Below, in pieces: positions 26,409 to 56,915 of a stretch of DNA of 64,000 nt. The position numbers were made by a program, and so were the translations under genes. The DNA comes from Bacteroidota bacterium (lineage in GTDB: Bacteria; Bacteroidota; Bacteroidia; UBA8524): the NCBI GenBank assembly GCA_016124735.1, contig WGMZ01000007.1, forward strand, positions 62,001-126,000, read 5' to 3'. Each line of letters starts with the position of its first letter. Positions within the stretch are counted from its first letter, which is position 1. The notes below the pieces were generated by a model that was not told the origin of the DNA, searched no databases, and saw only the letters and a program-made list of their open reading frames with translations.

Positions 26409-27635
26409 GTGAATCTAACCAGGGCCCGACATATTCTCTTTTACTTACTCGCATTCATCTTATTTGAAGAAAGCCTACGTGATTCCTGGTTGGAAGGAGA
26501 TTTGGTCGGGTATGTTATTGCCGGTGATTATGCCTGGCATGCAAAAGACATTTACAGTCATTGGCTCAATACCTGGCCTCCCTTGTTTTCCCTGTTTGGA
26601 ATCGTCGTCTACGCAATTGATTCCATTTCACCCCTTGGACTCCGCATTCTATGGCAATTAGGCTCTCTGTGGGCGGTTTGGCATATTTTTAAACGACTCA
26701 GTTTGCTTGTTTACCAAAAACCATTGGTGCTGAATCGCGCGGTAAAACAAGAGGAGATGTCCTTTCTCGATATTCGTTTCCAGGTTCCTTTTTTCCTTGC
26801 ATTCAAATATATCCTAGACAATACGGCCAATCTTCAGATCAATATCTACATGTTGGCTCTATGCATAGAGGGAATTTATCTATGGAAAATAGCAAACAAA
26901 CCTGTACCTGCAGCTTTGCTTTTTGGAATCACGCTGGCATTGAAAGTATATACTTTGTTTTTCGTGGTATGGTTCCTTTTTACGCGTCAGTGGAAAGTAT
27001 TCTTCGCGACAATTGCCTGGGTGCTGTTGCTCAATATTCCGGTATTTCTCTTTTTCGGGGTGGATCTTACCTTGCATTATTACCAGTATTGGTGGAAAGA
27101 AATTGCGCAGGGATTTCCAATGATCCTTCATAAAAACCAAAGCTTGTTTGCAGCCATTTGGCGGTTAACGGTGGAAGAGGACGCCGGACTGGGAATCAGC
27201 ACCAACCTGATTTCACTATCCATGGATGAGGCGAAAAGATTCACCTACGTTTTGGTGTTGCTCATTGGGTCCTGGCCTGCAATGCAGCTTTTCAGATTAA
27301 GCCAAAACAAGGAAAAGAGCTTGAAAGGAATGGCTTTATTTTTAGCATTGATACCACTTTTATCGCCGCTGGCCTGGAAGGCTTATTTTATTTTTCTGCT
27401 CCCTGCTCAATTTATTTTGGTCAAAGCCTGGTTCGACAAGAAACTTAGTAAATGGGAGAAATGGGTCTTTGTTGTCTCGCATATCTTGCTGATTATTAGC
27501 TCCGACATCTTTGTAGGTCCCTATGTCTCAGATTTGGCGGAATTGTATTCTCTCATTACGTTCGGAGCCATTTTGCTTGTGTCTCTGCTTCTGTTTCCTT
27601 TCTTTCGTTTATCATCCAACAAAACATCAAAATGA
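26409..27635 (+). CDS. GT87-type (DUF2029) membrane glycosyltransferase-like protein
   Basis: 408 residues with about ten membrane segments. The layout, an early acidic loop after the first helix (GDYAWHAKDIY), WPPLFSLF, and helices containing KVYTLFFVVWFLF, is that of GT-C glycosyltransferases of family GT87, which use polyprenyl-phosphate sugar donors on the outer side of the membrane. The start is GTG at 26409; a perfect TACATTTG at 26397-26404 would leave almost no leader, so the true start or promoter may differ. The stop overlaps the ATG of an RmlD-like reductase (ATGA), suggesting both act in making a surface glycan. Confidence 0.75.
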   Translation: MNLTRARHILFYLLAFILFEESLRDSWLEGDLVGYVIAGDYAWHAKDIYSHWLNTWPPLFSLFGIVVYAIDSISPLGLRILWQLGSLWAVWHIFKRLSLLVYQKPLVLNRAVKQEEMSFLDIRFQVPFFLAFKYILDNTANLQINIYMLALCIEGIYLWKIANKPVPAALLFGITLALKVYTLFFVVWFLFTRQWKVFFATIAWVLLLNIPVFLFFGVDLTLHYYQYWWKEIAQGFPMILHKNQSLFAAIWRLTVEEDAGLGISTNLISLSMDEAKRFTYVLVLLIGSWPAMQLFRLSQNKEKSLKGMALFLALIPLLSPLAWKAYFIFLLPAQFILVKAWFDKKLSKWEKWVFVVSHILLIISSDIFVGPYVSDLAELYSLITFGAILLVSLLLFPFFRLSSNKTSK

Positions 27636-28528
27636 AAAGAGTTCTCGTTACCGGCAGCAATGGTCTATTAGGACAAAAACTAAGTGACCTTTACACGAAG
27701 ATTGAAGGGGTAGACTTTTTGGCTACCGGTGCCGGCGCGAACAGACATCCCATGGGCGAGAAGCTGGCTTACCGAAGCATGGACATTCGCAACAAAGACG
27801 AGATTGATGCCTTGTTTGCAGATTTTCGTCCGGATACGGTCATTCATGCAGCCGCGATGACGAATGTGGATCAGTGTGAATTGGAAAAAGATGCCTGTAC
27901 TGCACTCAATGTGACGGCAGTAAATTATTTAATCGACGCCTGCAATCAGTACGATGGCCACCTGATCCATCTATCCACGGATTTTATTTTTGATGGGAAA
28001 GGGGGACCTTACAAGGAAGAGGATAGGCCCAATCCCATCAGCTTTTATGGCGAGTCAAAATTAGTGGGCGAAAAGATGATTCAGGAGAAAGCCAAGAAAT
28101 GGGCCATCGTCAGAACTGTCTTGGTTTATGGAATTGTGAAAGACATGAGCCGAAGTAATATTGTTCTCTGGGCAAAAAACGCTCTGGAATCAGGCAAGGA
28201 AATCAATGTAGTAACCGACCAATACCGATCGCCAACCCTTGCGGAAGATCTTGCCTTGGGTTGCAGATTGATAGAACAACAGGAAGCCCAGGGAATATTC
28301 CATATTTCGGGAAAAGATTTCATGTCAGTTTATGAGTTGGTTCAACGGGTAGCCGCCTACTGGAACTTACCTATTAATCATATGCATCCGAGCACTTCAG
28401 AAGGAATAAAACAAGCGGCAAAAAGACCACCTGTTACCGGATTTATTCTGGATAAAGCTATCAGGGAATTAGGTTATGCCCCGCGCAGTTTTGAGGAAGG
28501 CCTGGCCGTAATAAATGCGGAACTCTAA
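27632..28528 (+). CDS. RmlD-like NAD(P)-dependent sugar reductase
   Basis: 298 residues of the extended short-chain dehydrogenase type. The cofactor motif TGSNGLLGQ is at the N terminus, HAAAMTNVDQCE follows, and the catalytic YGESK sits near residue 148. The family includes dTDP-4-dehydrorhamnose reductase RmlD and methionine adenosyltransferase beta-like proteins; without rmlA-C nearby the exact substrate is open. It overlaps the GT87-like gene by four bases and ends at a hairpin. Confidence 0.85.
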   Translation: MKRVLVTGSNGLLGQKLSDLYTKIEGVDFLATGAGANRHPMGEKLAYRSMDIRNKDEIDALFADFRPDTVIHAAAMTNVDQCELEKDACTALNVTAVNYLIDACNQYDGHLIHLSTDFIFDGKGGPYKEEDRPNPISFYGESKLVGEKMIQEKAKKWAIVRTVLVYGIVKDMSRSNIVLWAKNALESGKEINVVTDQYRSPTLAEDLALGCRLIEQQEAQGIFHISGKDFMSVYELVQRVAAYWNLPINHMHPSTSEGIKQAAKRPPVTGFILDKAIRELGYAPRSFEEGLAVINAEL

Positions 28529-28621: not shown

Positions 28622-30721
28622 ATGCCAAAATTTAAGACCCTTCTGGTCCTGGTATTTATTGTCCTTACCGCATCCTGTTCTTCTTCGAGGAAAGAACGTG
28701 AGTACTTTGATCGCTACCATACGGATAGACCCTTTGTAGACGATGTAAATACAGACATAGCCCTGCGGCTTAGGAAAGAATACCCAAAAGAGTCGTTCGC
28801 TGACGTTGGGAGCGAAATACTCATTGAGTATTATTTGGATGACAACCATGACTTCCATGGATCAGACTCACTAATGACGACTCATCTTAAAGCCAGAGTC
28901 ACCTATTACTACACAATCTTGTCATTGCATGAAGCTGCCCGCTTTCAATTTGCTGTATTCTATAATAAGCACATGACGACCAGCAAAATTATGGCAAGCT
29001 ATGCTCCCAAAGAACTTGGAGAAAACTGGTTTCAACCGAATACCACAGACATGAGCTATGAGGTGGATGGGTATTTTTACAGTGACGCCCGGCTAAATTC
29101 ATTTAGTGCGTATATGCCTACCGTTGGAACACAGCTGCGTTTCACCTATTCCCAGGACTATGAAAATGTGAACTACCTCACCAACGTTTATTTTTCTGAA
29201 TCTTTTCCGGTAAAAAGGAGAAAAATAATTGTACGTGCTCCGGAATGGCTGGATTTGAATACTGTCGTGAAAAATGGCAAATGGGTGAAGACAGAAAAAG
29301 GAATGCCCAATTTTAGCCACATTGCCGACTACCGTCGCATTCATCAACGAAAAGAAGGGTTGGATTACAATTGGTATGATTCCTACCGGGGTGAAAAAGA
29401 GAAGGAACGCGTGTATCAGTATAGAACCTATTCATTGACAAATGTGAAGCCAAGAGATGCCTATGCTGCAGAGGAAGGTCCGACTTATTATCTCCCTCAT
29501 CTTTTGATCCGGGTCGATAAATACAAAGACAAGAATGGGGAGGTGCACCATGTAATGGGTAATTTGGATGATTTGTATTCCTGGTACCGTCGGTTGGTGC
29601 AGAGCATTGGTAATAAGCCAGAAGCAGTAAAAGAGCAAGCGGCAAAACTGACAGCAGGATTGCATTCGGATGAAGAAAAGGTGAAAGCTATTTTTTACTG
29701 GGTGCAAGACAATGTTCGCTACCTCGCTTTTGAAGATGGACTGGCTGGGTTTAAGCCGGAACCCTGTCAGATGGTCTATGCAAATCGCTACGGCGATTGC
29801 AAGGGGATGGCGAATCTCTTAACCGAAATGCTGAAATCGCAAGGGTACGACGCCAGACTGACATGGATTGGAACCCGCAGGATTGCTTACAACTATTCTG
29901 AACCCAGTATGGCGGTGGATAACCACATGATTTGCACACTCAATCTGAATGGTAAAAGATATTTTCTCGACGCAACCGAAGACCTCATTGGCTTTGGAGA
30001 TTATGCACACAGGATTCAGGGAAGGGAAGTGCTGATTGAAGATGGAGCAAGCTACATTCTTGACAGTGTTCCGGATTTACCCGCAGAGAGGAATGCCGTA
30101 AATATCTACGCGGATATGCATTTAGATGGAGCGGTTCTAAAGGGGAAGGTAAAAGAATCGCATAAAGGAGAAAGTCATACGCGCATCATGCGGTATTTTG
30201 AATCAAAGAAAAGCGACCGGAGAAAAACGGCTCTTGAGCGATATCTGAACCGGCAGGGACTGGAAAACACCCTTTCCAATATTCAACAGGATTCCATCTT
30301 CTATCGTTTAGGGTCGACCCATTTCTCGTATGATATTGCATGCAATGACCTGAGTCTGACGACAGATTCCAGTGTCTATCTTAAAGTAAATTTTGTCGAG
30401 TTGCCCTATTATTCATTGCAATGGGATAAGTCTCGGCAATGTGGCTTGAGTTTTAGCTATAAGGTGAAGGAAAACCATGAGATTCATGTACAAATTCCAG
30501 ATGGATGGCAGGTAGCTAACTTACCAGATACTGTTTCAGTTCAATCCAAATCCTTTAGCAGTCTGCTTTATTATTCACAAGCCGGGATTGATTTGGTGAT
30601 GCATGCTTCTTTCGAAATTCCAGACGGTACCGTTGGATGGGAAGAGAGAAGAGATTGGGAAAACAACAGAAAGCTCATTCACGAATTCTATTCTAAGTAT
30701 GTGGTGTTCATTAAAAAATAG
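28622..30721 (+). CDS. transglutaminase-core lipoprotein, module copy 1 (gene A1)
   Basis: 699 residues. A signal peptide ends in a lipobox (LTASCSSS), so the protein is probably anchored by Cys20. Residues about 50-240 look like a DUF3857-type beta domain. A transglutaminase-like core follows with the intact triad: Cys393 in RYGDCKGMANLL, His435 in VDNHMIC and Asp450 in YFLDATED. The last ~200 residues are a beta-rich domain. Proteins of this type are probable periplasmic or surface cysteine peptidases or transferases; the substrate is unknown. It is the first of three close-set genes repeated as a block downstream; its partner copy at 33640 is interrupted. Confidence 0.85.
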   Translation: MPKFKTLLVLVFIVLTASCSSSRKEREYFDRYHTDRPFVDDVNTDIALRLRKEYPKESFADVGSEILIEYYLDDNHDFHGSDSLMTTHLKARVTYYYTILSLHEAARFQFAVFYNKHMTTSKIMASYAPKELGENWFQPNTTDMSYEVDGYFYSDARLNSFSAYMPTVGTQLRFTYSQDYENVNYLTNVYFSESFPVKRRKIIVRAPEWLDLNTVVKNGKWVKTEKGMPNFSHIADYRRIHQRKEGLDYNWYDSYRGEKEKERVYQYRTYSLTNVKPRDAYAAEEGPTYYLPHLLIRVDKYKDKNGEVHHVMGNLDDLYSWYRRLVQSIGNKPEAVKEQAAKLTAGLHSDEEKVKAIFYWVQDNVRYLAFEDGLAGFKPEPCQMVYANRYGDCKGMANLLTEMLKSQGYDARLTWIGTRRIAYNYSEPSMAVDNHMICTLNLNGKRYFLDATEDLIGFGDYAHRIQGREVLIEDGASYILDSVPDLPAERNAVNIYADMHLDGAVLKGKVKESHKGESHTRIMRYFESKKSDRRKTALERYLNRQGLENTLSNIQQDSIFYRLGSTHFSYDIACNDLSLTTDSSVYLKVNFVELPYYSLQWDKSRQCGLSFSYKVKENHEIHVQIPDGWQVANLPDTVSVQSKSFSSLLYYSQAGIDLVMHASFEIPDGTVGWEERRDWENNRKLIHEFYSKYVVFIKK

Positions 30722-30728
30722 GTCAGGA

Positions 30729-32966
30729 ATGAAAAAGTTAGTTCTAACACTTATTCTCTTGAGTCCTGCATTCGTAAAGGCTCAATCGCGGCTCGACACC
30801 TTAAAACGGGAATGGTTTCAGCAAGCCAAAGAATCCTGTGTACAAAAAATTGCTTCGGAAGACCTGGTATTTAAACGTCAGGAAATACCCGCTGAATGGT
30901 CCAAAAGTTCAGCAATCATCTTATCATCCTATGCAAAGTATTTTGCTTATTCATCGAAAGAAGGCTACCGCATCGGGCAGTATTCTCTGGATCGCATTTT
31001 ACTGCGTGATGAATATGCTTTGGAAGATTTTTCATCATTTGCTTTGGATGATGAAAGCTATTTAAATGTAAGGGTTATTAAAAGTGATGGCTCTGTAATC
31101 GAATTGGATCATAGCAGAGAAGTCTATGGAGAATACATATATACCAATGGAAATACGGGAAAATCGTGGCATTATTTAGATAATCGAAAAATACCGGTTC
31201 CGGGATTGGAGTTTGGGGATATAATTGAAATTGAGCGTTACGGAGAGAATATTAAATTTAACTCCAAGGGAAAAGTCATTTACCCAACTTCGGAGGAAGG
31301 CTTTTTCATTATGCGGATGCATGAGTCTTTTCCGATTTTGCAACGTACCGTCGACTTTGAAATAGGAAGTCCATTTGAATTGAAATGGAAAGCCATGAAC
31401 CAGGCTCCGGTTTTAAAGGAAGTAAGCAGAAACGAAAACCGGATCACTTACCGTCTCACTGATGGAAAAAGAAAAAACCTGAAGCCTGAATACTGGAGCA
31501 CTAAAAGCAGCGAAGAACCCTATGTCAAGGTAGCTTTTTCTAAAGCCAGAGAAGAACTTAAAGGGGAAATACTTTCTGAAAACAAAGAGTACGACCCTTC
31601 CTGGTTATTGCCTTATATCAATGAGATCCGAAAGGATAGAGAATTGAGTCAGTCTGGTGTTGCCCTCGATTTTGCGAAAGATAATTTTATGGGCACTTTT
31701 AAGTTCAGCGGTTCTGTTGCAAGAAAGTTCTATTCCTACTACCGAAGTGAATGTTTCCTTAACCAACACAGCATTTCTTACGAAATGAGTGATGCACATT
31801 TCCTTGCTATACTGAGCAGGGTACTGGATAAGTTTAAGGTTAAATACGAATGGATGGCAGCAGTTCCGAAGGAATTGGGTACCTGGAAGGATGTTGTTTC
31901 TGCGGATGAAGTCTATTTGGGAATCCGGGTCAAACAGGAGAATGAAATATACACGGAATTCGATCCATATTCCACTTACAATGAACTGGATCCGTCTATT
32001 CAGGGAACCAATGCTGTCTTTATTGATTTCCAGCGCTCGGAAAAACATCCGGGTCTGCGATTTGAAGAGTTACCAGAATCTGGTCCAAAAGATAACCTGC
32101 TTACAACGACCTGGACACTATCAATTGATGGAACCCGGGTGAATGCAGAAAGGAAAAACGCATTCACAGGCCAAAGTCGGTTTTCACCGATGGAATATTT
32201 ACCGCATACCCTCTTGTTCGACGACGATTACAAGCGCTTGTACGGGAAAAATTATGCGCTGGGGATTGTTTCAAGCCATCCTTTTATTGAAAGAAGGGAT
32301 TTGTGGGATCGCATGGAGGAAGTTGCTGACAGGTACTGGCACGACGACCTGAAATATGCAGAGAAGCAATTGACTTATTATTTCAGGAACCGTAATTATG
32401 GTTTTGAAGATTACAGCTTCGTTAGGTTGAATGATCCGGCAAGAGAATTGGGAAGTCCGGAACTGGTATTCACCGATAAGATGACACTAAACAGCCTGCT
32501 GGGTGAATCGGACACGATTAAAATATTTCATATCGGACGACTGCTTGGTGAAACGATTTATCATCTGGATGCGGAAGATAGTATTCGGCAAACCGGGATA
32601 ATGATGCGAACACCTCAGACCGTTAAAACGGTTATTATACTGAAGGATGCCGCAAAATATTCGTATTCCGGATTACGCTATTTGGACACCACCGTGGAAA
32701 ATGAAGCGGGCTCCTTTTCTGTTTCCCACACAATTCATGATGAACAGGTTGAAATTATTGCCATTCAAACATTTACTGGCCAACGATTGGGGGCCAACAA
32801 GTGGAACGATGTATTGGACCTTGTTCAATGCGTGGCAGAAACCAACAGGAAAAAGCTCCTTGTGACAAAGAAAGCAGAACAGGAGAAAGAAGAAATTAAA
32901 ACGACGGATGACGGCCAATCCAAAGGAGATAAAGTGGAGGAAATGGAGGGATCCAATGATGAATAA
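30729..32966 (+). CDS. secreted DUF3857-type protein, module copy 1 (gene B1)
   Basis: 745 residues. ATG at 30729 gives a signal peptide (MKKLVLTLILLSPAFVKAQ); the longer open frame starting 126 bases earlier overlaps gene A1 and is rejected. Residues about 55-200 contain IPVPGLEFGDIIEIERYGEN, typical of DUF3857. A helical region about residues 320-420 resembles a transglutaminase core by its layout, but the position of the catalytic Cys is occupied by SDAHFLAILSRVL, so it is probably inactive. The C terminus is very acidic and low complexity. It begins 7 bases after A1, so the two are likely co-translated and may work as an active/inactive pair. Confidence 0.8.
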   Translation: MKKLVLTLILLSPAFVKAQSRLDTLKREWFQQAKESCVQKIASEDLVFKRQEIPAEWSKSSAIILSSYAKYFAYSSKEGYRIGQYSLDRILLRDEYALEDFSSFALDDESYLNVRVIKSDGSVIELDHSREVYGEYIYTNGNTGKSWHYLDNRKIPVPGLEFGDIIEIERYGENIKFNSKGKVIYPTSEEGFFIMRMHESFPILQRTVDFEIGSPFELKWKAMNQAPVLKEVSRNENRITYRLTDGKRKNLKPEYWSTKSSEEPYVKVAFSKAREELKGEILSENKEYDPSWLLPYINEIRKDRELSQSGVALDFAKDNFMGTFKFSGSVARKFYSYYRSECFLNQHSISYEMSDAHFLAILSRVLDKFKVKYEWMAAVPKELGTWKDVVSADEVYLGIRVKQENEIYTEFDPYSTYNELDPSIQGTNAVFIDFQRSEKHPGLRFEELPESGPKDNLLTTTWTLSIDGTRVNAERKNAFTGQSRFSPMEYLPHTLLFDDDYKRLYGKNYALGIVSSHPFIERRDLWDRMEEVADRYWHDDLKYAEKQLTYYFRNRNYGFEDYSFVRLNDPARELGSPELVFTDKMTLNSLLGESDTIKIFHIGRLLGETIYHLDAEDSIRQTGIMMRTPQTVKTVIILKDAAKYSYSGLRYLDTTVENEAGSFSVSHTIHDEQVEIIAIQTFTGQRLGANKWNDVLDLVQCVAETNRKKLLVTKKAEQEKEEIKTTDDGQSKGDKVEEMEGSNDE

Positions 32967-32982
32967 GATAAAATTGGGTACG

Positions 32983-33591
32983 ATGAAGAAGCTGATTAAG
33001 TTGGGCCTTTTCGCCGTTTTAATTCTGGGCTTTCACGCCCATGCTCAGGTAAATACGGGTATAGAATTGATATCACCAAGTATTTCCTTAAACCCCTTTC
33101 TTCCGAATGGACCAAAGCTTGACAATTACAATGGATTGGGAGGAATTGGTTGGTTTAGGCAACATTGGAAAAAGGATCGTTTTTACCGTACCTGGGACTG
33201 TCGATTCGAATACGGAACGGGTATATACACCCATTCAGATGCGACTTATATGCCTTATAACGGAATAAAAGGAGATTACCATCAAATAGGCGTTAGTGTG
33301 AATTGGGCTTGGGGAAAGCCCTTATTTAACAAAGAATTTGACGACCGTTTCTTTTGGTTTGCGACGGGCGGTTTTGGGTTCAATTACCAACTCACCAAAG
33401 GAAAAGCATTTATTTCAAGTAATTCTTATGTCGATTTTGAAAGGGAAACTTATACGCCAAATCTCAATGGAACCTTTGGGTTTCAAGCCAGAATGGGGAT
33501 GAGTTGGTATTACCACCTTTGTGCAGAAGCCAGCTTATCGAACGTAAGTAAATTCAATATTAAAATTCGTTTCCTGCGGAGAAATGGATGA
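32983..33591 (+). CDS. small exported protein of unknown family, module copy 1 (gene C1)
   Basis: 202 residues from ATG 32983, which opens a good signal peptide (MKKLIKLGLFAVLILGFHAHAQ); ATGs at 32956 and 32959 overlap gene B1. The mature part is rich in Trp, Tyr, Phe and Gly. Segments QHWKKDRFYR, WGKPLFNKEFDDRFFW and a C-terminal strand NIKIRFLRRNG recur in the copy at 37981. An outer-membrane barrel or soluble beta-sandwich are both possible. I recognise no family. It follows B1 by 16 bases. Confidence 0.7.
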   Translation: MKKLIKLGLFAVLILGFHAHAQVNTGIELISPSISLNPFLPNGPKLDNYNGLGGIGWFRQHWKKDRFYRTWDCRFEYGTGIYTHSDATYMPYNGIKGDYHQIGVSVNWAWGKPLFNKEFDDRFFWFATGGFGFNYQLTKGKAFISSNSYVDFERETYTPNLNGTFGFQARMGMSWYYHLCAEASLSNVSKFNIKIRFLRRNG

Positions 33592-33639
33592 TTTCATTCA
33601 TGCCAATAAACATAGAAACTTTAAACCGAACCAAAACAA

Positions 33640-35760
33640 ATGGGATATAATCGAATAAAAGCAGTAGGATTGGGAGCGGGCCTCCTGGCTCTAAGCGCCT
33701 GCAACAGCGTGCCTCAGGAACTGCTTAAGTACAAAACAACCCAGCCATTTATTACGCTTGAAAACAGAGAATTGGCGTCGTCTTTAGCGAAAAAATATCC
33801 GGATGATCCTTTTTATACCAATCAGAGCGAAGTATTGGTTGAGTTTTATCTGGAGGATAAGAAAGGTTCCAGAAAATCAAAGCGAGAGGACCAGGAAGAT
33901 GAGAAGATGGATGATATGGTCACCGAGCTAAAAGCAAAGGTGACTTATTACCAATCCGTATTGGCATTGAATGATTTTACTGATTACCGGGATCAGGTTT
34001 ATTACAATGACTTAATGACCGTTTCTCCGATTTATTATTCTTATGAAGCTTTTCGCGAAAAACATAAATGGTATTACAAAACCACCTTCTCGAGTTCTTA
34101 TGAAGTGGATGGAATGTTTTATACCGATGCGCGGCTAAAGTATTTTAGTGCGAAAATACCTGCTCAGGGAACCCAATTGGATTATGTATACTCCGTGGTT
34201 TACGACAATGTGACCTACCTGACGAATCTTTATTTTCTGGATTATATGCCAATGGGCAAAAAGAGTGTCACCTTTAAAATACCTGACTGGCTGGACGCAG
34301 AGATAATTGAAAAGAATCTGAGTGGCTTTAATATTTCGAGAAGTACACGAAATCCAAGAGGGAGCAAGATTGAGACATTTCGGGAACAAATGGGGTGGGA
34401 TGCAGACTCAGAATCGGATACCAAGTCTAAAAAGAGAGGACAGAAGCGAACCAAATACAATTACATCCATTTTGAAGCTTCGAATATGCAGCCTTTAAAA
34501 AGGGAAAAATATGCTACCGGGCCTACACACCAAATGCCACATGTTTTGGTTTCCTTGAAAAAATATGAGGATAAATCAGGAAAGGAAAAGAATATTCTGG
34601 GCTCTGTTTCCGATTTATATGCCTGGTACCACAAGTTGGTGAGCAATGTTGAAAACGACACAAGCAAAGTGGCTGAAAAAGCGAGGGAACTGACACAAGG
34701 CAAGACATCAGACCTGGAAAAGGTTAAGGCGGTATATTACTGGATTCAGGACAATGTTCGCTACATCGCTTATGAGGATGGAATAGCGGGTTTTCAGCCG
34801 GAAGCATGTCAAAATGTTTTCGAAGATCGATACGGGGATTGCAAAGGGATGGCCAATCTACTTACACAAATGCTTCGTTGTTTGGGTTACGATGCACATG
34901 TTACCTGGATAGGAACACGCAGGATAGCGTATGATTATTCCATTCCAAGTTTGGCAGTAGACAATCACATGATCTGTACCCTGAATCTGGATGGAAAACG
35001 CTATTTCCTGGACCCTACAGAGGATTATATCGAATTGGGCGATTATGCACACCGCATTCAGGGCAGGCAAGTCCTGATTGAAAATGGGGATACGTTTTTA
35101 CTCGATAGGGTTCCTAACCTCGGTTACGAAAGGAATCAATGCGAAAAAACAGAATCCTTCACTTTAAGTGACGATGGAGACTTGATAGGCCAGGCGAAGG
35201 AGGTTTATCGCGGAGAAAGTAAAACGAATATTTTACGCTTTTATAATGAACTTAAATCCGATCGCAGAGCAACGGCATTGGAGCGTTACCTCAATGATCA
35301 AAATACAAGTTTACAGGTAAATAATATTCACTTCTCGGATCTTACAGACCGGGTGCAGCCAGTAACATTTGATTACGATTTGCGGGTTAAGAACCATGCT
35401 TTGAAAGCTGACAATAAATTATTCTTAAAGTTGGACTGGGTCGGCGAATAGAATGCCCTTGAATTGGATACAAGCCGGATATCCGATGTGGATGTTGGAT
35501 ATAAAGTGTTCAATCAGGTGAGTCGATCCGTGTTCATCCCAAAAGGATATAAGCTCGAGTTTTCACCCAAAAAAATTGATGTAAAGAATGAGGATTACCG
35601 AATACTAATGGAGTATCATCTGGAAGGTGATAAGCTTCTTTTTAACAAGGAAATCATCTTTTACAATGGGATTATTCCGGTGGACAGAGTAAAGGAATGG
35701 AATGCTCTTCAACTCGAAATGTCCAGATTTTACAGTGATTTTGTACTCTTAACGCGATAA
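33640..35760 (+). pseudogene. transglutaminase-core lipoprotein, module copy 2, interrupted by amber stop (gene A2)
   Basis: This is the paralogue of gene A1. A lipobox-like LALSACNS follows the N-terminal hydrophobic segment. The core triad is intact: Cys401 in RYGDCKGMANLL, His443 in VDNHMIC, Asp458 in YFLDPTED. The frame is broken by TAG at 35449-35451 (codon 604) and then continues in the same frame for 102 more codons to 35760. The continuation aligns with the A1 C-terminal domain, so only one codon separates two parts of one gene. The possibilities are a nonsense mutation, a sequencing error, or a shortened functional protein that keeps the whole catalytic core. The second fragment has no good start of its own. 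It lies 48 bases after gene C1 and 4 bases before B2. Confidence 0.85.
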
Positions 35761-35764
35761 GAAA

Positions 35765-37975
35765 ATGAGAATAACTTATCTGATAGTACTGAGTTTAGCG
35801 CTTTCCTTTACTCATCCAATATTTGCCCAGAAGGATAAAAGTCCAAAGAAAACGGAGCTTGAAAAGACTCTTGAAAAAGGCCGTGATCAATTAAAGTCAG
35901 AGATTCATTTAGATGATTCAATCTTGAAATTTCAGGCAGTTCCTGACAAATGGAAGAATGAGTCAGCTGTAATCTTATTAAATTATATAGCCGTTCAGCA
36001 TGTGAATGCCAAAAAGCAACCGGTCGGAGAAGCGTCCCGCGAATACCATTTTAAACGTATTCTTCTTCAGGATCATTTTGCAATTAATGATTTTTCGGAA
36101 TTTGAATTGGAAGAGAATCAAATTTTGGAAGTCAAGGTTATCAAACCGAATGGCGACACTATTTTACTGGACAAGTCCAAAGCTGTTTCAGATGAGATTC
36201 GCATAGAAGACCGAATTGGATATTATGGGTTTTATTTACCGGATTTTACCAACGGCACGAAAATTCCGGTTCCAGGTCTTGAGCCTGGCGATATCATCGA
36301 AATCGAGCAGTATTATGAAAATGTATTTTCGAGCTACACCTCAGGAGTTGTGCGCACATTCTGGAGGGATTATTACAATTTGCGTCGCCTTAATTTAAAC
36401 TATCCGGTATGCTACCATGTGATGGATTTCAAGCTGAGCAAGAACATTCAATTCAATTGGAAATCCATGAATGGTGCGCCTGAGATTCAAAAAAGTAAAG
36501 GGGATAAGAATAACTTCGCTTACAGGTTTGTCGATTCAATGCGCGACCGAAATAAGGCTGAATTCTGGAGTCCGGGCACGGTTACTTTCCCCTTTGTCAA
36601 ATATTCCATCTCGCGATTTAAATCAGGTAAATCACTCAGTGAGTTCGGCAATACCAGCAAAGGAAAGGCCTTGCAAAAAGTGAGAAAGAGCCAGATAAAA
36701 GACTTGATTTATTCTCTGGAATACAAAAATGAAGAGCTCACTCACTCCCATGTGATGCGGGACTTTACCCTTAAGTATGCGCATGAAAACATGGATCCGG
36801 AAACCTATGTCAATAAGTTCTATGAATACTACAGGGCCTATTATCATTTTGAAGTAGCGGACGATCCGGAGGATGTTTTGAATAATTTCCGTTTCGTATT
36901 GATTATGAAGCGGATTCTTCAGAAGAAAAACCTTGAATACGATTATGTTGTCGGCATTCCAAGGCAATTTGGCGCTTTGGATGATATCATCTCAGTCAAT
37001 GAGATTACGATAGGGTTACGTATTCATGAAACGGGTCAAATTCTGCAAGTCTTTAATGTGTATTCACTGATGGGAGAGGTATCGAACTCTTTGAAGGGCA
37101 CCGAAGTATTTATTGTTAAACCTGCGAAGTCTTCAAAGAAGATTCACGTTTCACGGGATACTTTGCCCCAGGCTCCATCTGAGGAAAATACCTACCTGTA
37201 TGAGGTAAACGCAAAACTCTTGCCTGGCTACCAGAAAATTGAAGTGGAAAATAAGGTGACCTTAAAAGGATATGCACGCTATGGCTATGTAAGAGACATG
37301 CCTTATACCATATTTCAATGGGATTTAAACACCATGTTTGGTGAGGATTACCTGCAGGTAGGAACCAATAGAGTTTGGTATGAAGACATGGACCGGGAGG
37401 AATACCAATCGGAAAAGCAACGAAGAGATACGACCTTAACATACGAATTGAATAAAGCCTCATTAAAAAAGCTAAAGAACAGTCACCGGAATAAATATTA
37501 CGAAATTAAGGATTACAACAAATTTGAATTGATCGAAAATGGTCGCTTGACAGATGCGCCGCAGCTTCGATACAAAGAGGAATATGTGGTCGAAGGTTTA
37601 TGCGGACAAGCAGGAGCATATTACGTGCTGGACCTGGGGCGTTTGTTGGGTCAGCAATTGGAAATTATAGACAGCGAAGACAGTATACGCAACCAGGATA
37701 TTTATTTCGGTTATCCGCGTGTAATATCTTACAAGCTTCGCTTTGAGCTACCCATTGGAATGAAAGTAAGTGGACTGGAGGCATTTAATATAGATGTCGA
37801 CAATGAATCAGGTTCTTATACCATGGTGGCTCGACAGGAGGGTAATATGATTATTATCGAAGCCAGCAAAACCTACAAGCAAGTGTTATTGAATAAGTCG
37901 GAATGGACTAGTGTGAAATCATTTATTGATGCTGCGGTCGACTTGAACAGCAAACGAATTGTATTAACAAGATAA
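35765..37975 (+). CDS. secreted DUF3857-type protein, module copy 2 (gene B2)
   Basis: 736 residues with a signal peptide (MRITYLIVLSLALSFTHPIFAQ). It is clearly paralogous to B1: IPVPGLEPGDIIEIEQYYEN, the middle FRFVLIMKRIL...VVGIPRQFG stretch, and the LGRLLGQ...DSEDSIRNQ stretch near the end (LGRLLGE...DAEDSIRQT in B1). As in B1 the transglutaminase-like region lacks a Cys in the expected place. It lacks B1's acidic tail. It starts 4 bases after the A2 frame and ends 5 bases before C2, so transcription and translation appear coupled. Confidence 0.82.
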   Translation: MRITYLIVLSLALSFTHPIFAQKDKSPKKTELEKTLEKGRDQLKSEIHLDDSILKFQAVPDKWKNESAVILLNYIAVQHVNAKKQPVGEASREYHFKRILLQDHFAINDFSEFELEENQILEVKVIKPNGDTILLDKSKAVSDEIRIEDRIGYYGFYLPDFTNGTKIPVPGLEPGDIIEIEQYYENVFSSYTSGVVRTFWRDYYNLRRLNLNYPVCYHVMDFKLSKNIQFNWKSMNGAPEIQKSKGDKNNFAYRFVDSMRDRNKAEFWSPGTVTFPFVKYSISRFKSGKSLSEFGNTSKGKALQKVRKSQIKDLIYSLEYKNEELTHSHVMRDFTLKYAHENMDPETYVNKFYEYYRAYYHFEVADDPEDVLNNFRFVLIMKRILQKKNLEYDYVVGIPRQFGALDDIISVNEITIGLRIHETGQILQVFNVYSLMGEVSNSLKGTEVFIVKPAKSSKKIHVSRDTLPQAPSEENTYLYEVNAKLLPGYQKIEVENKVTLKGYARYGYVRDMPYTIFQWDLNTMFGEDYLQVGTNRVWYEDMDREEYQSEKQRRDTTLTYELNKASLKKLKNSHRNKYYEIKDYNKFELIENGRLTDAPQLRYKEEYVVEGLCGQAGAYYVLDLGRLLGQQLEIIDSEDSIRNQDIYFGYPRVISYKLRFELPIGMKVSGLEAFNIDVDNESGSYTMVARQEGNMIIIEASKTYKQVLLNKSEWTSVKSFIDAAVDLNSKRIVLTR

Positions 37976-37980
37976 TCAGG

Positions 37981-38598
37981 ATGAGAGGAAGACATATTTT
38001 AACAGCAATAATTGGCGTATTTATTATAAACACTGCCAATGGACAGCACCGGGATGGGATTGAAATCAGTCAGGCACCAGTCGGATTCTTTCTGAAGAAG
38101 ACCTATAACGCTTTGGGATCGGGTACGCAATTAAGTCAATTGGTTCAATTCCCAAGTCTGGGTTATTACCATCAACACTGGATTGATGATCGGTATTGCC
38201 GCTACCAGAGCCTTACATATCAGGGAATGCATGGAACGCTTCTCAATCCGCTCGGCCGCTTAGATTCAAAAGCACAGGTTAATCTGTTCAATTTCACGTG
38301 GGGAAAATTGGGCTATTTTAAGCACCGGGAATTTGATGATGATCATGCGTGGTTTATGTCGTACGCACTCAGCATCGGCTATGGCCATTTACGCTACCAA
38401 ACTTACAAGCAGGATGGAAGTGGGGCAATTAAAGATTCTCAAAAGGTTCCTTTTGGACAGTTTACTCTTTACCAACTAGGGTTTGGCTATGAAAAGAAAC
38501 TAAGCGAGGATTATCAGATGAATGCATCTGCCGAAATTTCCATCGGAACATTACCGAATCTTTCGCTTCACTTCCGAATCATGAAAAACCGCTTTTAA
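37981..38598 (+). CDS. small exported protein of unknown family, module copy 2 (gene C2)
   Basis: 205 residues. It is the paralogue of C1: HQHWIDDRYCR matches QHWKKDRFYR, the WGK...EFDD...WF block is kept, and the C terminus is again a strand ending in basic residues (LHFRIMKNRF). An N-terminal signal peptide ends about ANG-Q. The overall identity looks modest, so the duplication is not recent. It ends tail to tail with an alpha/beta hydrolase gene with no gap. Confidence 0.7.
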   Translation: MRGRHILTAIIGVFIINTANGQHRDGIEISQAPVGFFLKKTYNALGSGTQLSQLVQFPSLGYYHQHWIDDRYCRYQSLTYQGMHGTLLNPLGRLDSKAQVNLFNFTWGKLGYFKHREFDDDHAWFMSYALSIGYGHLRYQTYKQDGSGAIKDSQKVPFGQFTLYQLGFGYEKKLSEDYQMNASAEISIGTLPNLSLHFRIMKNRF

Positions 38599-38605
38599 TC
38601 AGCGG
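38589..38605. terminator. short hairpin at a convergent gene junction
   Basis: CCGCT / AGCGG (38589-38593 with 38601-38605) with a 7-base loop spans the two stop codons of gene C2 and the convergent hydrolase gene. There is no long T run, so a terminator role is uncertain. Confidence 0.35.
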
Positions 38606-39894
38606 ATGAATGCGATCACGTCCTGAATAAAAAGAGGATCCACGGATCCTGCTACTTGCAGTTGTGCTGGCCCAATGGCATTGCCTATAGGGATAAAACC
38701 ATGTCCGCAACCCGGAATCACTTTTGTCTGCACCTTCTTGTCGATAAAGGGCTTCCATTTCTGCAATTCATTCATTTCGACCTGATAGTCCTTTTCTGCA
38801 AAAAGCATCAACACTTTTCCCTTGTATTGCGACAATGCTTCTTCCGGATGGTAGTTTAGAATATCTTGCCAGTAATAGGCATTGAGCCCAAGGGGAAGCC
38901 AGGAAGCGTCGGCAGTAGTATCAAAATCGTCGGATCGAAGAAAAGCCACCTCTTCTTCCACTTCCTTTAAGGGACGGTAATAGGTACCACTACTATCCAA
39001 ATCATTCAAATAATTCAACTGCCGAAGTAACACACTGTCCATCGGTGTGACGGGTGCTGCCGCCATTATGATTCCTTTCAGTTTTCCGGATCGTAAAGCA
39101 ACTCTGGGAGCCAGAATTCCTCCTTCACTATGTCCAAGAAGATAGAGTTGTTTCGAATCAATTCCCGGATACTCACTAAAGGTGTCAATGGCTGCCAGTA
39201 AATCTTCGATGTATTCATCTTCCACAGTCAGCTTATTCATATCAGGAGCAGACTGAAGCCCATAGACAAAAGTTCTTTTCGGAAATCGAAATACAGCAAT
39301 GCCTGAACTGGCCAATCCATACGCGATGTCTTTGAACATCCGGTTAGGACCTATATGTACATCCATATTTTGGGGTCCGGATCCATGAGATAAAATAACC
39401 AGAGGCGATTTTTTCGCTCCCCGGGGCTTACAAAGTTTTCCTTTGAGTAGGTAAGGACCACTGTGCAGTTCAAAATCTTCTTCAACAAAGAGACTGGTAT
39501 CCGCATAAGCCGGAATCTGGTAGCGCGTTTTATTAACGGGAGGAGCAAAGAACATCCCGGTAAATTGTCCTTCGGAATTAAAGGGGAATTTGATATCAAG
39601 TGTTCCTTTTTCAAACTGCAATCCGATATACAGCATATGGCCTTCAATCATCCATCCAGAGGTATCCTTAAAGGAACCATAGGTTTTAATGGCTATTTGA
39701 GTCCATCCAATATTAAGCTGGGAAGCGCTAATATGCTTCTGAGCCATGCTGTCAAAGTATTGAGGATTTACTTCTGCTTTTTGAGCATCAAGCAAGTGAA
39801 CCATTTGCACACCTTTTTCAAGAAGTGCTTTTTGATTTTGGGCAGAGACGAAGCAGGAGAGGCTTAGTGCTGCGCCGAGTAAGAAACGTTTCAT
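38599..39894 (-). CDS. secreted alpha/beta hydrolase with N-terminal DUF3887-like domain
   Basis: 431 residues. A signal peptide ends about VSAQ. Residues about 25-120 resemble DUF3887, a small NTF2-like domain often placed before exported hydrolases. The hydrolase core has the oxyanion segment LSHGSGPQ, the nucleophile elbow GHSEGG and a late His in GCGHGF. It is a probable periplasmic esterase or acyl-transfer enzyme of unknown substrate. Its ATG overlaps the stop of the upstream phosphoribosyltransferase (4 bases), giving a two-gene unit. Confidence 0.87.
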   Translation of the reverse strand: MKRFLLGAALSLSCFVSAQNQKALLEKGVQMVHLLDAQKAEVNPQYFDSMAQKHISASQLNIGWTQIAIKTYGSFKDTSGWMIEGHMLYIGLQFEKGTLDIKFPFNSEGQFTGMFFAPPVNKTRYQIPAYADTSLFVEEDFELHSGPYLLKGKLCKPRGAKKSPLVILSHGSGPQNMDVHIGPNRMFKDIAYGLASSGIAVFRFPKRTFVYGLQSAPDMNKLTVEDEYIEDLLAAIDTFSEYPGIDSKQLYLLGHSEGGILAPRVALRSGKLKGIIMAAAPVTPMDSVLLRQLNYLNDLDSSGTYYRPLKEVEEEVAFLRSDDFDTTADASWLPLGLNAYYWQDILNYHPEEALSQYKGKVLMLFAEKDYQVEMNELQKWKPFIDKKVQTKVIPGCGHGFIPIGNAIGPAQLQVAGSVDPLFIQDVIAFIR

Positions 39895-54030: not shown

Positions 54031-54609
54031 ATGATTGCCATTGGAGACACTCTCATTTCAGAAGATTTATTAGAATCATACTTTGCCTGCAATTTATCCG
54101 CATGCAAAGGTGCTTGCTGTATAGAAGGGGATCAGGGAGCTCCTTTATTGGAAGATGAACTCAGTCAAATTGAAAAAAATCTTCCAGCAATTCTTCCATA
54201 CCTGCCTGAAGAACAACAAGAAAAGATACGCAGAGATGGATTTTATACCTATTACCCGGATGGCGATTTAGGCACTTCCATGATGAACAACGGTGCCTGC
54301 GTTTTCGTTACCTCAGAAAATGGAATTTTAGGCTGTGGAATGGAAAAGGCTTTTTTCGAAAAGAAATCGGATTTTCATAAACCGATTTCTTGCCATTTGT
54401 ACCCGGTGAGAGTCAAAACGTATAAAGAATTCACATCGGTGAATTACAATCGTTGGGATATTTGCAATCCCGCCTGTCATCTTGGAAAAGAGCAGGAAAC
54501 TCCTTTGTACCTTTTTGTGGAAAATGCATTGGTGCGGCGATTTGGCCAGGAATGGATGGATGCATTAAAATCTACAGCAGAGCATTTGAAGGAGGAAAAG
54601 AATTCCTAA
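54031..54609 (+). CDS. DUF3109 family cysteine-rich protein
   Basis: 192 residues from ATG 54031. It has a conserved set of cysteines, CNLSACKGACC near residue 20, GCGMEKAF, ISCHLYPVR and CNPACHLGK, typical of DUF3109 and able to bind a metal or Fe-S cluster. Function is not established. A TTG start 54 bases upstream would add a poorly conserved leader and overlap the -7 box. It ends convergently with pbpC, overlapping it by four bases (CTAA). Confidence 0.88.
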   Translation: MIAIGDTLISEDLLESYFACNLSACKGACCIEGDQGAPLLEDELSQIEKNLPAILPYLPEEQQEKIRRDGFYTYYPDGDLGTSMMNNGACVFVTSENGILGCGMEKAFFEKKSDFHKPISCHLYPVRVKTYKEFTSVNYNRWDICNPACHLGKEQETPLYLFVENALVRRFGQEWMDALKSTAEHLKEEKNS

Positions 54610-56915
54610 AACCGTTTTATTTTAATGCGGATATGACTGGTTCGTCCCTGGTCATCGGTGCAGCTGATTTTCACCTCCCCATTGGGCACTTTAACAATAA
54701 AATCTTCCCCGTTTTTGGCACTTCCCATATACCGGTCGTTCAGGTACCAGTAGATTTCTCGGACCCTCGATTCAGTTTCGGCCACCAGACTCAATTGAGC
54801 CGTTTCTTCTTTTTCTATTAAATATTCTGCCTGATCGGTCGGGCTAATTATTCGAGGTCCTTCTTCCTGGAAGATTCGAGGACAATCCGGATTATGAGGA
54901 GGAATTCTGACGTACGAGTAATGATTGTCTTCAAAATAGCGAATCAGGCCGGGATCATAAATTCGGTAAACGACTTCCTTGGTGCTATTGCCCGGGCTGC
55001 ATCTGCGGCAATAACTCATGGTTGCATTTTTATTGACTTCGATGGATTTCCGGCATTGACAGGGAATGTGCAAACTGATTCCAGGAATAAAGTAGTCGTG
55101 ACCGAGATTTATACAATACTTACCCGGTATTTGTCCACTTTCGGTACAAATTTCCCTCAGAGAAAGATGTTCAGGAATGGCAAGCCAATTGGCCTTGCTT
55201 CTCGGCTGAATGCTTTGAAACAAATAAAAAAGCAGTGGAGTTGCCATTTCTGCTCCGCTAAGTCCCGGCACACCCTGATTATCAAAATTTCCGACCCAGA
55301 CTCCAATGGTATATTCATCATTGAAACCAATGCTCCAGGCATCTCTTCGGCCATAGCTGGTACCTGTTTTCCAGGCAATATGAGGCAGCGTTTTTCCCAA
55401 TTGCCAATCGCTCGGCAAATCCGGACGTTCAATTTTGCTCATGATTTCACTGACCAAATAACTGGCTTCGGGTTTAATCCATTGATAATGCAGATGACCA
55501 CTGTCTTCTTTTACATACCGAAGGTTTCTGTATTCCCCTTGATTAGCAAGACAAGCATAGGCATTGCTTAGTTCTTCTAATCTAACCCCACAGCCACCGA
55601 GAATCATGGACAAGCCGAGATTTTTCTCATCTGAATCAATCTGTCTCATATTTAATCCTTTGAGTTTCTGAACAAACTCTTTCACCCCGTATTGTTGCAA
55701 TGTACGGACCGCAGGAATATTCAGAGAACGTGTCAGTGCACCTTCCACAGTGATAGCCCCATGGTAACCAAGGTCGTAGTTTTCAGGCGAATATCCAGAG
55801 AAATAACTGGGCACATCATACACTATGGTCTTGGGAGTTATCAGTCCTTTTTCCATGGATAATGCGTACAACAGCGGTTTTAAAGTCGACCCGGGAGAGC
55901 GGATTCCACGTATTCCATCTACCTCTCCCTGATTAAGCTTGTCTTCAAAATCCGCTGAACCTATATAGGTAATAACCTGTCTTGTTTTGTTGTCGATGAT
56001 GAGGACCGAAGCGTTGGTAATTTGAACCGATTTAAGCCGGTCGATATACTGATGCACGAGTGCCTCACTTTTTCGTTGAAAATCATAGCGAATACAACTT
56101 CTGATGATGGGTTGATTTCTTTCCGAATACAATCGTCTGCAAAGATGCGGTGCCACACTTTTCCATGATTTGCGTTCAATATTCAGTTCTTCATTTTTGG
56201 CACTTTCCCAGGAGTTTTGTGAAAGCCAGTTGTTATCATAAAAATAATCCAACCAGGTATTGCGTGCCGAAAGCAGAGCTTGATTTCCTGGCTTGAGTTG
56301 CCAGGTCCCCGGGCGGTTCGGAACAATGGCCAGCGTGGCAATTTGAGCGGGACTAAGTTGATTTGGAAGACATTGAAAGTATAGAAAGGAGGCCGATTTG
56401 ATGCCTTCTATATTCCCCCCATAAGGAACCAGATTGAGGTACATGCGAAGTATTTCATCTTTGGAATAATGCCATTCCAATTGCAAGGCGCGAAACAATT
56501 CAATGAGTTTGTTGGTATAAGTTCGTTTTCGCGGTTCCAACAGTCGAACGACCTGCATTGTAATGGTAGAAGCCCCTGAGACACGCTTACCACCGCGAAT
56601 ATTCTTCACAAATGCCCTCAGAATAGCAATTGGATTGAATCCGGGATGAAAGTAAAACCAACGGTCTTCTTTCAATAAAAATGCATCACTTATGGTGCTG
56701 CTTATGTCCTCTGGTTCAAGATACAAACGCCACTTGTCATCTGAACTGAGAAAAGCAGCCAAAGGTCTGTCTTCTGCGGAATATACCATGGAACTATACG
56801 AAATTTCCGGATGAATGGGATGAATCCAGTCGGCCATGAGAAAAACCATGAAAAAGAGGAGAAACACATAGCGAAGGAATCTTAGAGTCGACTTAAGCCA
56901 TTTATTCGTGCGCAT
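54606..56915 (-). CDS. pbpC: penicillin-binding protein 1C
   Basis: 769 residues. After an N-terminal membrane helix, the GT51 glycosyltransferase domain has KEDRWFYFHPGFNP and GASTITMQVVRLL. The transpeptidase domain carries SxxK in GSTLKPLLY, SLN, and KTGTS. The last ~120 residues, with a cluster of cysteines before them and a beta domain, fit the BiPBP_C region of PBP1C. It polymerises and perhaps cross-links peptidoglycan in the inner membrane. Unlike in enterobacteria, no alpha-2-macroglobulin gene is beside it. The 277-base gap to lysA holds no further gene that I can see. Confidence 0.95.
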   Translation of the reverse strand: MRTNKWLKSTLRFLRYVFLLFFMVFLMADWIHPIHPEISYSSMVYSAEDRPLAAFLSSDDKWRLYLEPEDISSTISDAFLLKEDRWFYFHPGFNPIAILRAFVKNIRGGKRVSGASTITMQVVRLLEPRKRTYTNKLIELFRALQLEWHYSKDEILRMYLNLVPYGGNIEGIKSASFLYFQCLPNQLSPAQIATLAIVPNRPGTWQLKPGNQALLSARNTWLDYFYDNNWLSQNSWESAKNEELNIERKSWKSVAPHLCRRLYSERNQPIIRSCIRYDFQRKSEALVHQYIDRLKSVQITNASVLIIDNKTRQVITYIGSADFEDKLNQGEVDGIRGIRSPGSTLKPLLYALSMEKGLITPKTIVYDVPSYFSGYSPENYDLGYHGAITVEGALTRSLNIPAVRTLQQYGVKEFVQKLKGLNMRQIDSDEKNLGLSMILGGCGVRLEELSNAYACLANQGEYRNLRYVKEDSGHLHYQWIKPEASYLVSEIMSKIERPDLPSDWQLGKTLPHIAWKTGTSYGRRDAWSIGFNDEYTIGVWVGNFDNQGVPGLSGAEMATPLLFYLFQSIQPRSKANWLAIPEHLSLREICTESGQIPGKYCINLGHDYFIPGISLHIPCQCRKSIEVNKNATMSYCRRCSPGNSTKEVVYRIYDPGLIRYFEDNHYSYVRIPPHNPDCPRIFQEEGPRIISPTDQAEYLIEKEETAQLSLVAETESRVREIYWYLNDRYMGSAKNGEDFIVKVPNGEVKISCTDDQGRTSHIRIKIKRF

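Follow-up and report, generated by a model that had tools for sequence, protein, structure and literature searches.

Lineage-specific tandem duplication of a candidate envelope module encoding a transglutaminase-fold lipoprotein, a predicted pseudoenzyme relative and a putative small barrel in Bacteroidota

At the locus described here a trio of genes occurs twice in a row, which raises the questions of whether one trio is a copy of the other, how intact each copy is, and what the encoded proteins could do together. The window, the whole 64,000-nucleotide stretch of DNA that was analysed, comes from a 3.1-Mb draft genome in an order of Bacteroidota that is sparsely sampled, with 5 genomes, and six of its plus-strand genes lie in the order A1-B1-C1-A2-B2-C2 (Table 1). 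The reading that we put forward, and to which we give about even credence, is that of a lineage-specific tandem copy of an envelope module made up of a lipid-anchored enzyme (A), a pseudoenzyme partner (B) and a docking barrel (C). DUF3857-type genes are common in Bacteroidota and hardly mentioned in the literature that we searched, from which most subscription literature fell outside: DUF3857 appeared there only as a lolA neighbour in Xanthomonas, and a functional study of DUF3858, of BDI_1141 or of a periplasmic transglutaminase pseudoenzyme was not found. The domains and their architecture have been described before. What appears to be undescribed is that the pair is found across the phylum, that in one clade A is a lipoprotein and a putative barrel gene follows, and that the module is duplicated in tandem.

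Layout and duplication of the module

Table 1. Genes of the duplicated module and its borders (positions in the window)
Feature	Coordinates	Strand	Description
RmlD-like reductase	27632..28528	+	Left border of module; adjoins the hydrolase in genus-mates without the module
A1	28622..30721	+	Lipoprotein (SPII, Cys19); DUF3857-like / transglutaminase core, Cys393-His435-Asp450 / DUF3858-like
B1	30729..32966	+	Secreted (SPI), predicted catalytically dead A homologue; fast-evolving copy
C1	about 32983..33591	+	Secreted, ~200 aa, probable 8-stranded outer-membrane barrel
A2 as read	33640..35451	+	Lipoprotein, triad intact; ends at in-frame TAG 35449-35451
A2 3′ remainder	35452..35760	+	A2 frame onward to TAA; still codes DUF3858-like C-terminal tail
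B2	35765..37975	+	Secreted, predicted catalytically dead homologue; AlphaFold2 model pLDDT 82, matches 3kd4
C2	37981..38598	+	Secreted, ~205 aa, probable 8-stranded outer-membrane barrel
Alpha/beta hydrolase	38599..39894	-	Right border of module

The first-pass annotation of this DNA had described A-B-C twice in tandem with gaps of 4 to 48 bases. Gene order, duplication and coordinates stand, and the four-base gap between A2 and B2 holds only if the in-frame TAG of A2 is ignored. The exact start of C1 is uncertain, with candidate ATG codons at 32908, 32956 and 32983. We found no Bacteroidota-type -7 motif (TAnnTTTG) upstream of A1 or A2. None of the six proteins matches a PADLOC anti-phage model at E 0.01, and a role in anti-phage defence was therefore rejected. 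Elsewhere in the window, a penicillin-binding protein 1C-like gene with transglycosylase, transpeptidase and BiPBP_C domains lies at 54606-56915.

The three-gene module is a true tandem duplication. A1 and A2 are 44% identical over 604 aa (E 1e-175) and B1 and B2 are 27% identical over 743 aa (E 5e-84), while the short C1 and C2 reach 24% identity with an E value, for that one comparison alone, of 3e-9. The C1-C2 alignment scores 45.4 bits against 29.3 for the best of 2000 shuffles of C2, so that the two align beyond chance. The earlier annotation had made the module idea hinge on this alignment and had called all three pairs paralogous; both points are borne out.

One of the six genes is interrupted. 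The in-frame TAG stops A2 as read 313 bases before the start of B2, and the frame then stays open to a TAA at 35758-35760. An alignment with A1 as query runs without interruption across the stop, and the other A genes of the clade of C-bearing genomes (described below) have no interruption at this position. Among the 38 main reading frames on the list for the window, 10 terminate in TAG (A2 is one of the 10); TAG is thus an ordinary stop here, which led us to reject stop-codon reassignment. It follows that A2 as read is without its C-terminal DUF3858 domain, or that the base is an assembly error; a genuine TAG without readthrough would deprive the product of this tail.

Phylogenies of both proteins place the two window copies as sisters (support 99/98 for A and 95/93 for B), and the alternative that groups copy 2 with the single-copy relative G001 is only marginally rejected by the AU test (p 0.053 for A, 0.047 for B). 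In both proteins copy 1 has evolved at about twice the pace of copy 2 (1.12 versus 0.50 for A, 2.0 versus 1.1 for B), and this parallel acceleration of A1 and B1 is as expected of partners. The duplication is lineage-specific. G001 carries a single module in the same neighbourhood as the window, just before rmlD. The genus-mate G003 has a gene order identical to that of the window (pirin-like, YceI-like, DoxX, GT87, rmlD, hydrolase, phosphoribosyltransferase, transporter), except that nothing separates rmlD from the hydrolase, and a second genus-mate, G004, has the same junction; this empty site implies that the module was lost there, or that it moved or was gained in the lineage of the window.

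These observations bear on whether the second copy matters to the cell at all. The tandem copy could be non-functional baggage, left by a neutral duplication and with copy 2 already reduced to a pseudogene: the premature stop means that at least one copy may be decaying, and the genus-mates without the module indicate that it is dispensable. However, A1 and A2 are only 44% identical and have nonetheless kept all catalytic residues, and the frames of B1, B2, C1 and C2 are intact, which argues that both copies have long been under selection. The interrupted A2 is moreover the less diverged copy, and its single stop could have arisen very recently or be an error of the assembly. We consider baggage distinctly unlikely.

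Local duplications were also seen outside the window. An unrelated Bacteroidota MAG has the tandem array A-B-C-A-B (L029, 4774-14336), which lacks C in its second copy and arose separately. In the same neighbourhood of the genus-mate G003, two alternating pairs of exported proteins of ~230 aa and ~380 aa (L208, 1719-5487) are apparently another local tandem duplication.

An enzyme-like A and its cysteine-less relative B

A and B share the architecture of a DUF3857 region, a transglutaminase fold and a DUF3858 region. The transglutaminase core of A is recognized by Pfam Transglut_core (42.4 bits for A1 and 47.1 bits for A2 against a cut-off of 23; E 9e-11), and its motifs YGDC, NH and D supply the Cys-His-Asp triad, which is invariant in 42 of 42 relatives. 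Together with a lipobox in both A1 and A2, this confirms the earlier description of A as a lipoprotein with such a triad. The flanking domains fall below the Pfam thresholds in A1, with 16.3 bits for DUF3858 (cut-off 27) and no DUF3857 match reported, although the genome search gave a sub-threshold DUF3857 match of 22.2 bits. We assign A to the DUF3857-transglutaminase-DUF3858 proteins because it is similar over its full length to proteins in which DUF3857 is recognized, such as L014 with 27.9 bits.

B was aligned to A by profile-profile comparison (hhalign) at 98.8% over 612 columns, and the 58 B sequences compared have no conserved cysteine at any column. B2 lies close to the DUF3857 cut-off of 24.6 bits (23.5 as a protein, 25.5 in the genome search) and B1 scores 17.7. 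The top fold match of the B2 model (mean pLDDT 82) is the DUF3857-transglutaminase structure 3kd4 (E 2e-22), which is BDI_1141 of Parabacteroides distasonis and resembles the model over its whole length; yeast oligosaccharyltransferase and M1 aminopeptidases are further fold matches. PDB searches by sequence, with A1, B2 and the A and B profiles as queries, yielded no useful match, and 3kd4 was reached in this way only by the ordinary paralogue (E 0.012). Judged by its alignment to A, its modelled fold and its missing cysteine, B is a full-length pseudoenzyme relative of A throughout the phylum, which extends an earlier suggestion, made from two sequences, that B is transglutaminase-like without the cysteine.

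Among prokaryotes, most proteins of the transglutaminase superfamily have been predicted to be hydrolases or shown to be so. This weighs on the chemistry of A, since an alternative is that A is a transamidase that cross-links envelope proteins through glutamine and lysine or amine groups, B serving as its substrate or as a scaffold. The Transglut_core match fits such an activity and the superfamily triad is compatible with both chemistries; the only solved relative, 3kd4, was on the other hand deposited as a putative protease, which makes hydrolysis the more likely chemistry. A transamidase seems to us unlikely.

The A-B pair reaches far beyond the window. A scan of genome contigs found relatives of A coded at no fewer than 561 loci, that is, at least 561, and in the best 80 of these, picked by similarity and mostly from Flavobacteriaceae, B lies directly downstream of A on the common strand at 79. 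To reduce the bias of similarity-based picking, we drew 395 genomes class-wide, and 111 of these have an A match at E 1e-20; 40 loci were sampled and 39 had room for a neighbour, and B or its ordinary relative adjoins A at 38 of these, the exception being L177. The pairs elsewhere in Bacteroidota share gene order, strand and near-zero spacing with A-B of the window. Apart from A and B, even the commonest family is present in no more than 16 of the 80 neighbourhoods, and a conserved wider operon was rejected on this count. The genome of the window has, elsewhere, an ordinary A-B pair without C (L005, 5450-9415; 664 and 655 aa), and the genus-mate G003 likewise carries one (L095).

The earlier annotation knew of no described system with the A-B-C composition and proposed a search for this gene order across Bacteroidota. 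It had also staked the module idea on homologues not usually lying far apart, and A and B, which adjoin at nearly every locus, bear this out. The composition proves not to be rare in its A-B core, which occurs in hundreds of genomes phylum-wide, and C follows B in one clade only.

The separate proteins A and B are coded together in nearly all cases, which suggests that they form a heteromer. A and B could instead be functionally separate old duplicates that are co-regulated in one operon, B being a lone binding protein and C an unrelated porin-like gene, and it is true that C is missing from most A-B loci and hard to align between lineages. We regard this as improbable: the two genes stay adjacent almost without exception across very large divergence while nothing else is conserved next to them, A1 and B1 accelerate in parallel, the A and B trees are congruent, and the position of C is constant and tied to the change of A into a lipoprotein. 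A predicted active and a predicted dead protein that are almost always found together, with no other conserved neighbour, leave the function of the pair open to a simple test.

The C genes and the lipid anchor

C was found in five genomes: that of the window, two relatives in its family (G001 and G002) and two unrelated MAGs (L029 and L046). In all five it begins 5-16 bases after B, twice in the window. These lineages form one clade in both trees (95/93 for A, 100/99.9 for B), and only four genomes in the class-wide draw, all of this clade, gave a strong match to the C profile. C1, C2 and the C gene of G001 are clearly one family. The C genes of G002, L029 and L046 rank 2-13 among about 900 background proteins in profile-profile comparison, with E values of 0.01-0.7 that are short of significance, and are likely homologous to C1 and C2 by position and size.

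The C family has no match in Pfam or NCBIfam. C2 starts with a signal-like N-terminus, and its model, of low confidence (pLDDT 57, pTM 0.48), consists of eight or nine long strands; OmpA, Ail and OmpX, at ~10% identity, come closest in fold. C1 and C2 are therefore only probably 8-stranded outer-membrane barrels: the model shares its roughly eight long strands with the small barrels of the OmpA/OmpX/Ail/OmpW fold, but C differs from these in its ~10% identity, its low-confidence model and its lack of a Pfam or NCBIfam family.

The presence of C goes with a change in A. A is a lipoprotein in 7 of 7 cases in the C-bearing clade (G001 being counted via an internal start), whereas only 4 of the other 78 A proteins have a lipobox-like stretch, at least 3 of which look spurious; in other Bacteroidota the pair has no C after B, and its A carries an ordinary signal peptide. 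The module of the window resembles the DUF3857/Transglut_core/DUF3858 proteins of Bacteroidota (PF12969, PF01841, PF12970) in the domain architecture of A and B and departs from them in that A, as in the whole clade, is a lipoprotein with a DUF3857 part too diverged for the Pfam model, a probable barrel gene follows, and the module is duplicated.

Surface lipoproteins of Bacteroidetes carry an acidic export signal at positions +2 to +6 (PMC5080379). Asp and Glu are both missing from these positions in the A lipoproteins of the C-bearing clade, and A is for this reason more likely to face the periplasm, insofar as a signal defined in other lineages applies here. C had first been described as a surface partner, which the missing signal in A makes less likely than a periplasm-facing arrangement. 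The same evidence bears on a digestive complex exposed on the cell surface after the manner of SusCD-type systems, which would likewise combine a lipoprotein, a secreted protein and a barrel, here next to glycan-related genes (GT87, RmlD). Besides the missing acidic signal, a barrel of 205 aa is far below the size of a SusC-type transporter, and the flanking glycan genes keep their order in G003 without the module. We consider such a complex highly unlikely.

In the envelope module that we propose, A would be a lipid-anchored cysteine enzyme with a transglutaminase fold, most probably oriented towards the periplasm, that most likely hydrolyses, and possibly transfers, amide bonds of envelope proteins or peptides. 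B, its secreted pseudoenzyme paralogue, would most likely bind A and aid in holding or selecting the substrate. In the C-bearing clade, A would have acquired its lipid anchor and the pair would have acquired C, whose small outer-membrane barrel most likely serves to dock A-B at the membrane; after the duplication the copies would have diverged, A2 being shortened later by its stop codon. A stronger version, that A-B is an undescribed, obligate enzyme-pseudoenzyme machine of the envelope which one clade anchored by lipid and a dedicated barrel before it was duplicated and specialised, is one that we hold only tentatively. The lipoprotein-plus-barrel clade points to a place in the envelope to look.

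Other small genes also follow B. Those of Aequorivita (L038, L044, L059) and Flavobacterium (L022, L027, L048) were rejected as C, since they belong to families of their own. The Aequorivita family, secreted proteins of ~210 aa encoded 1-8 bases after B in three genomes, is perhaps a separate accessory gene, and at L032 an ORF related to it lies further downstream.
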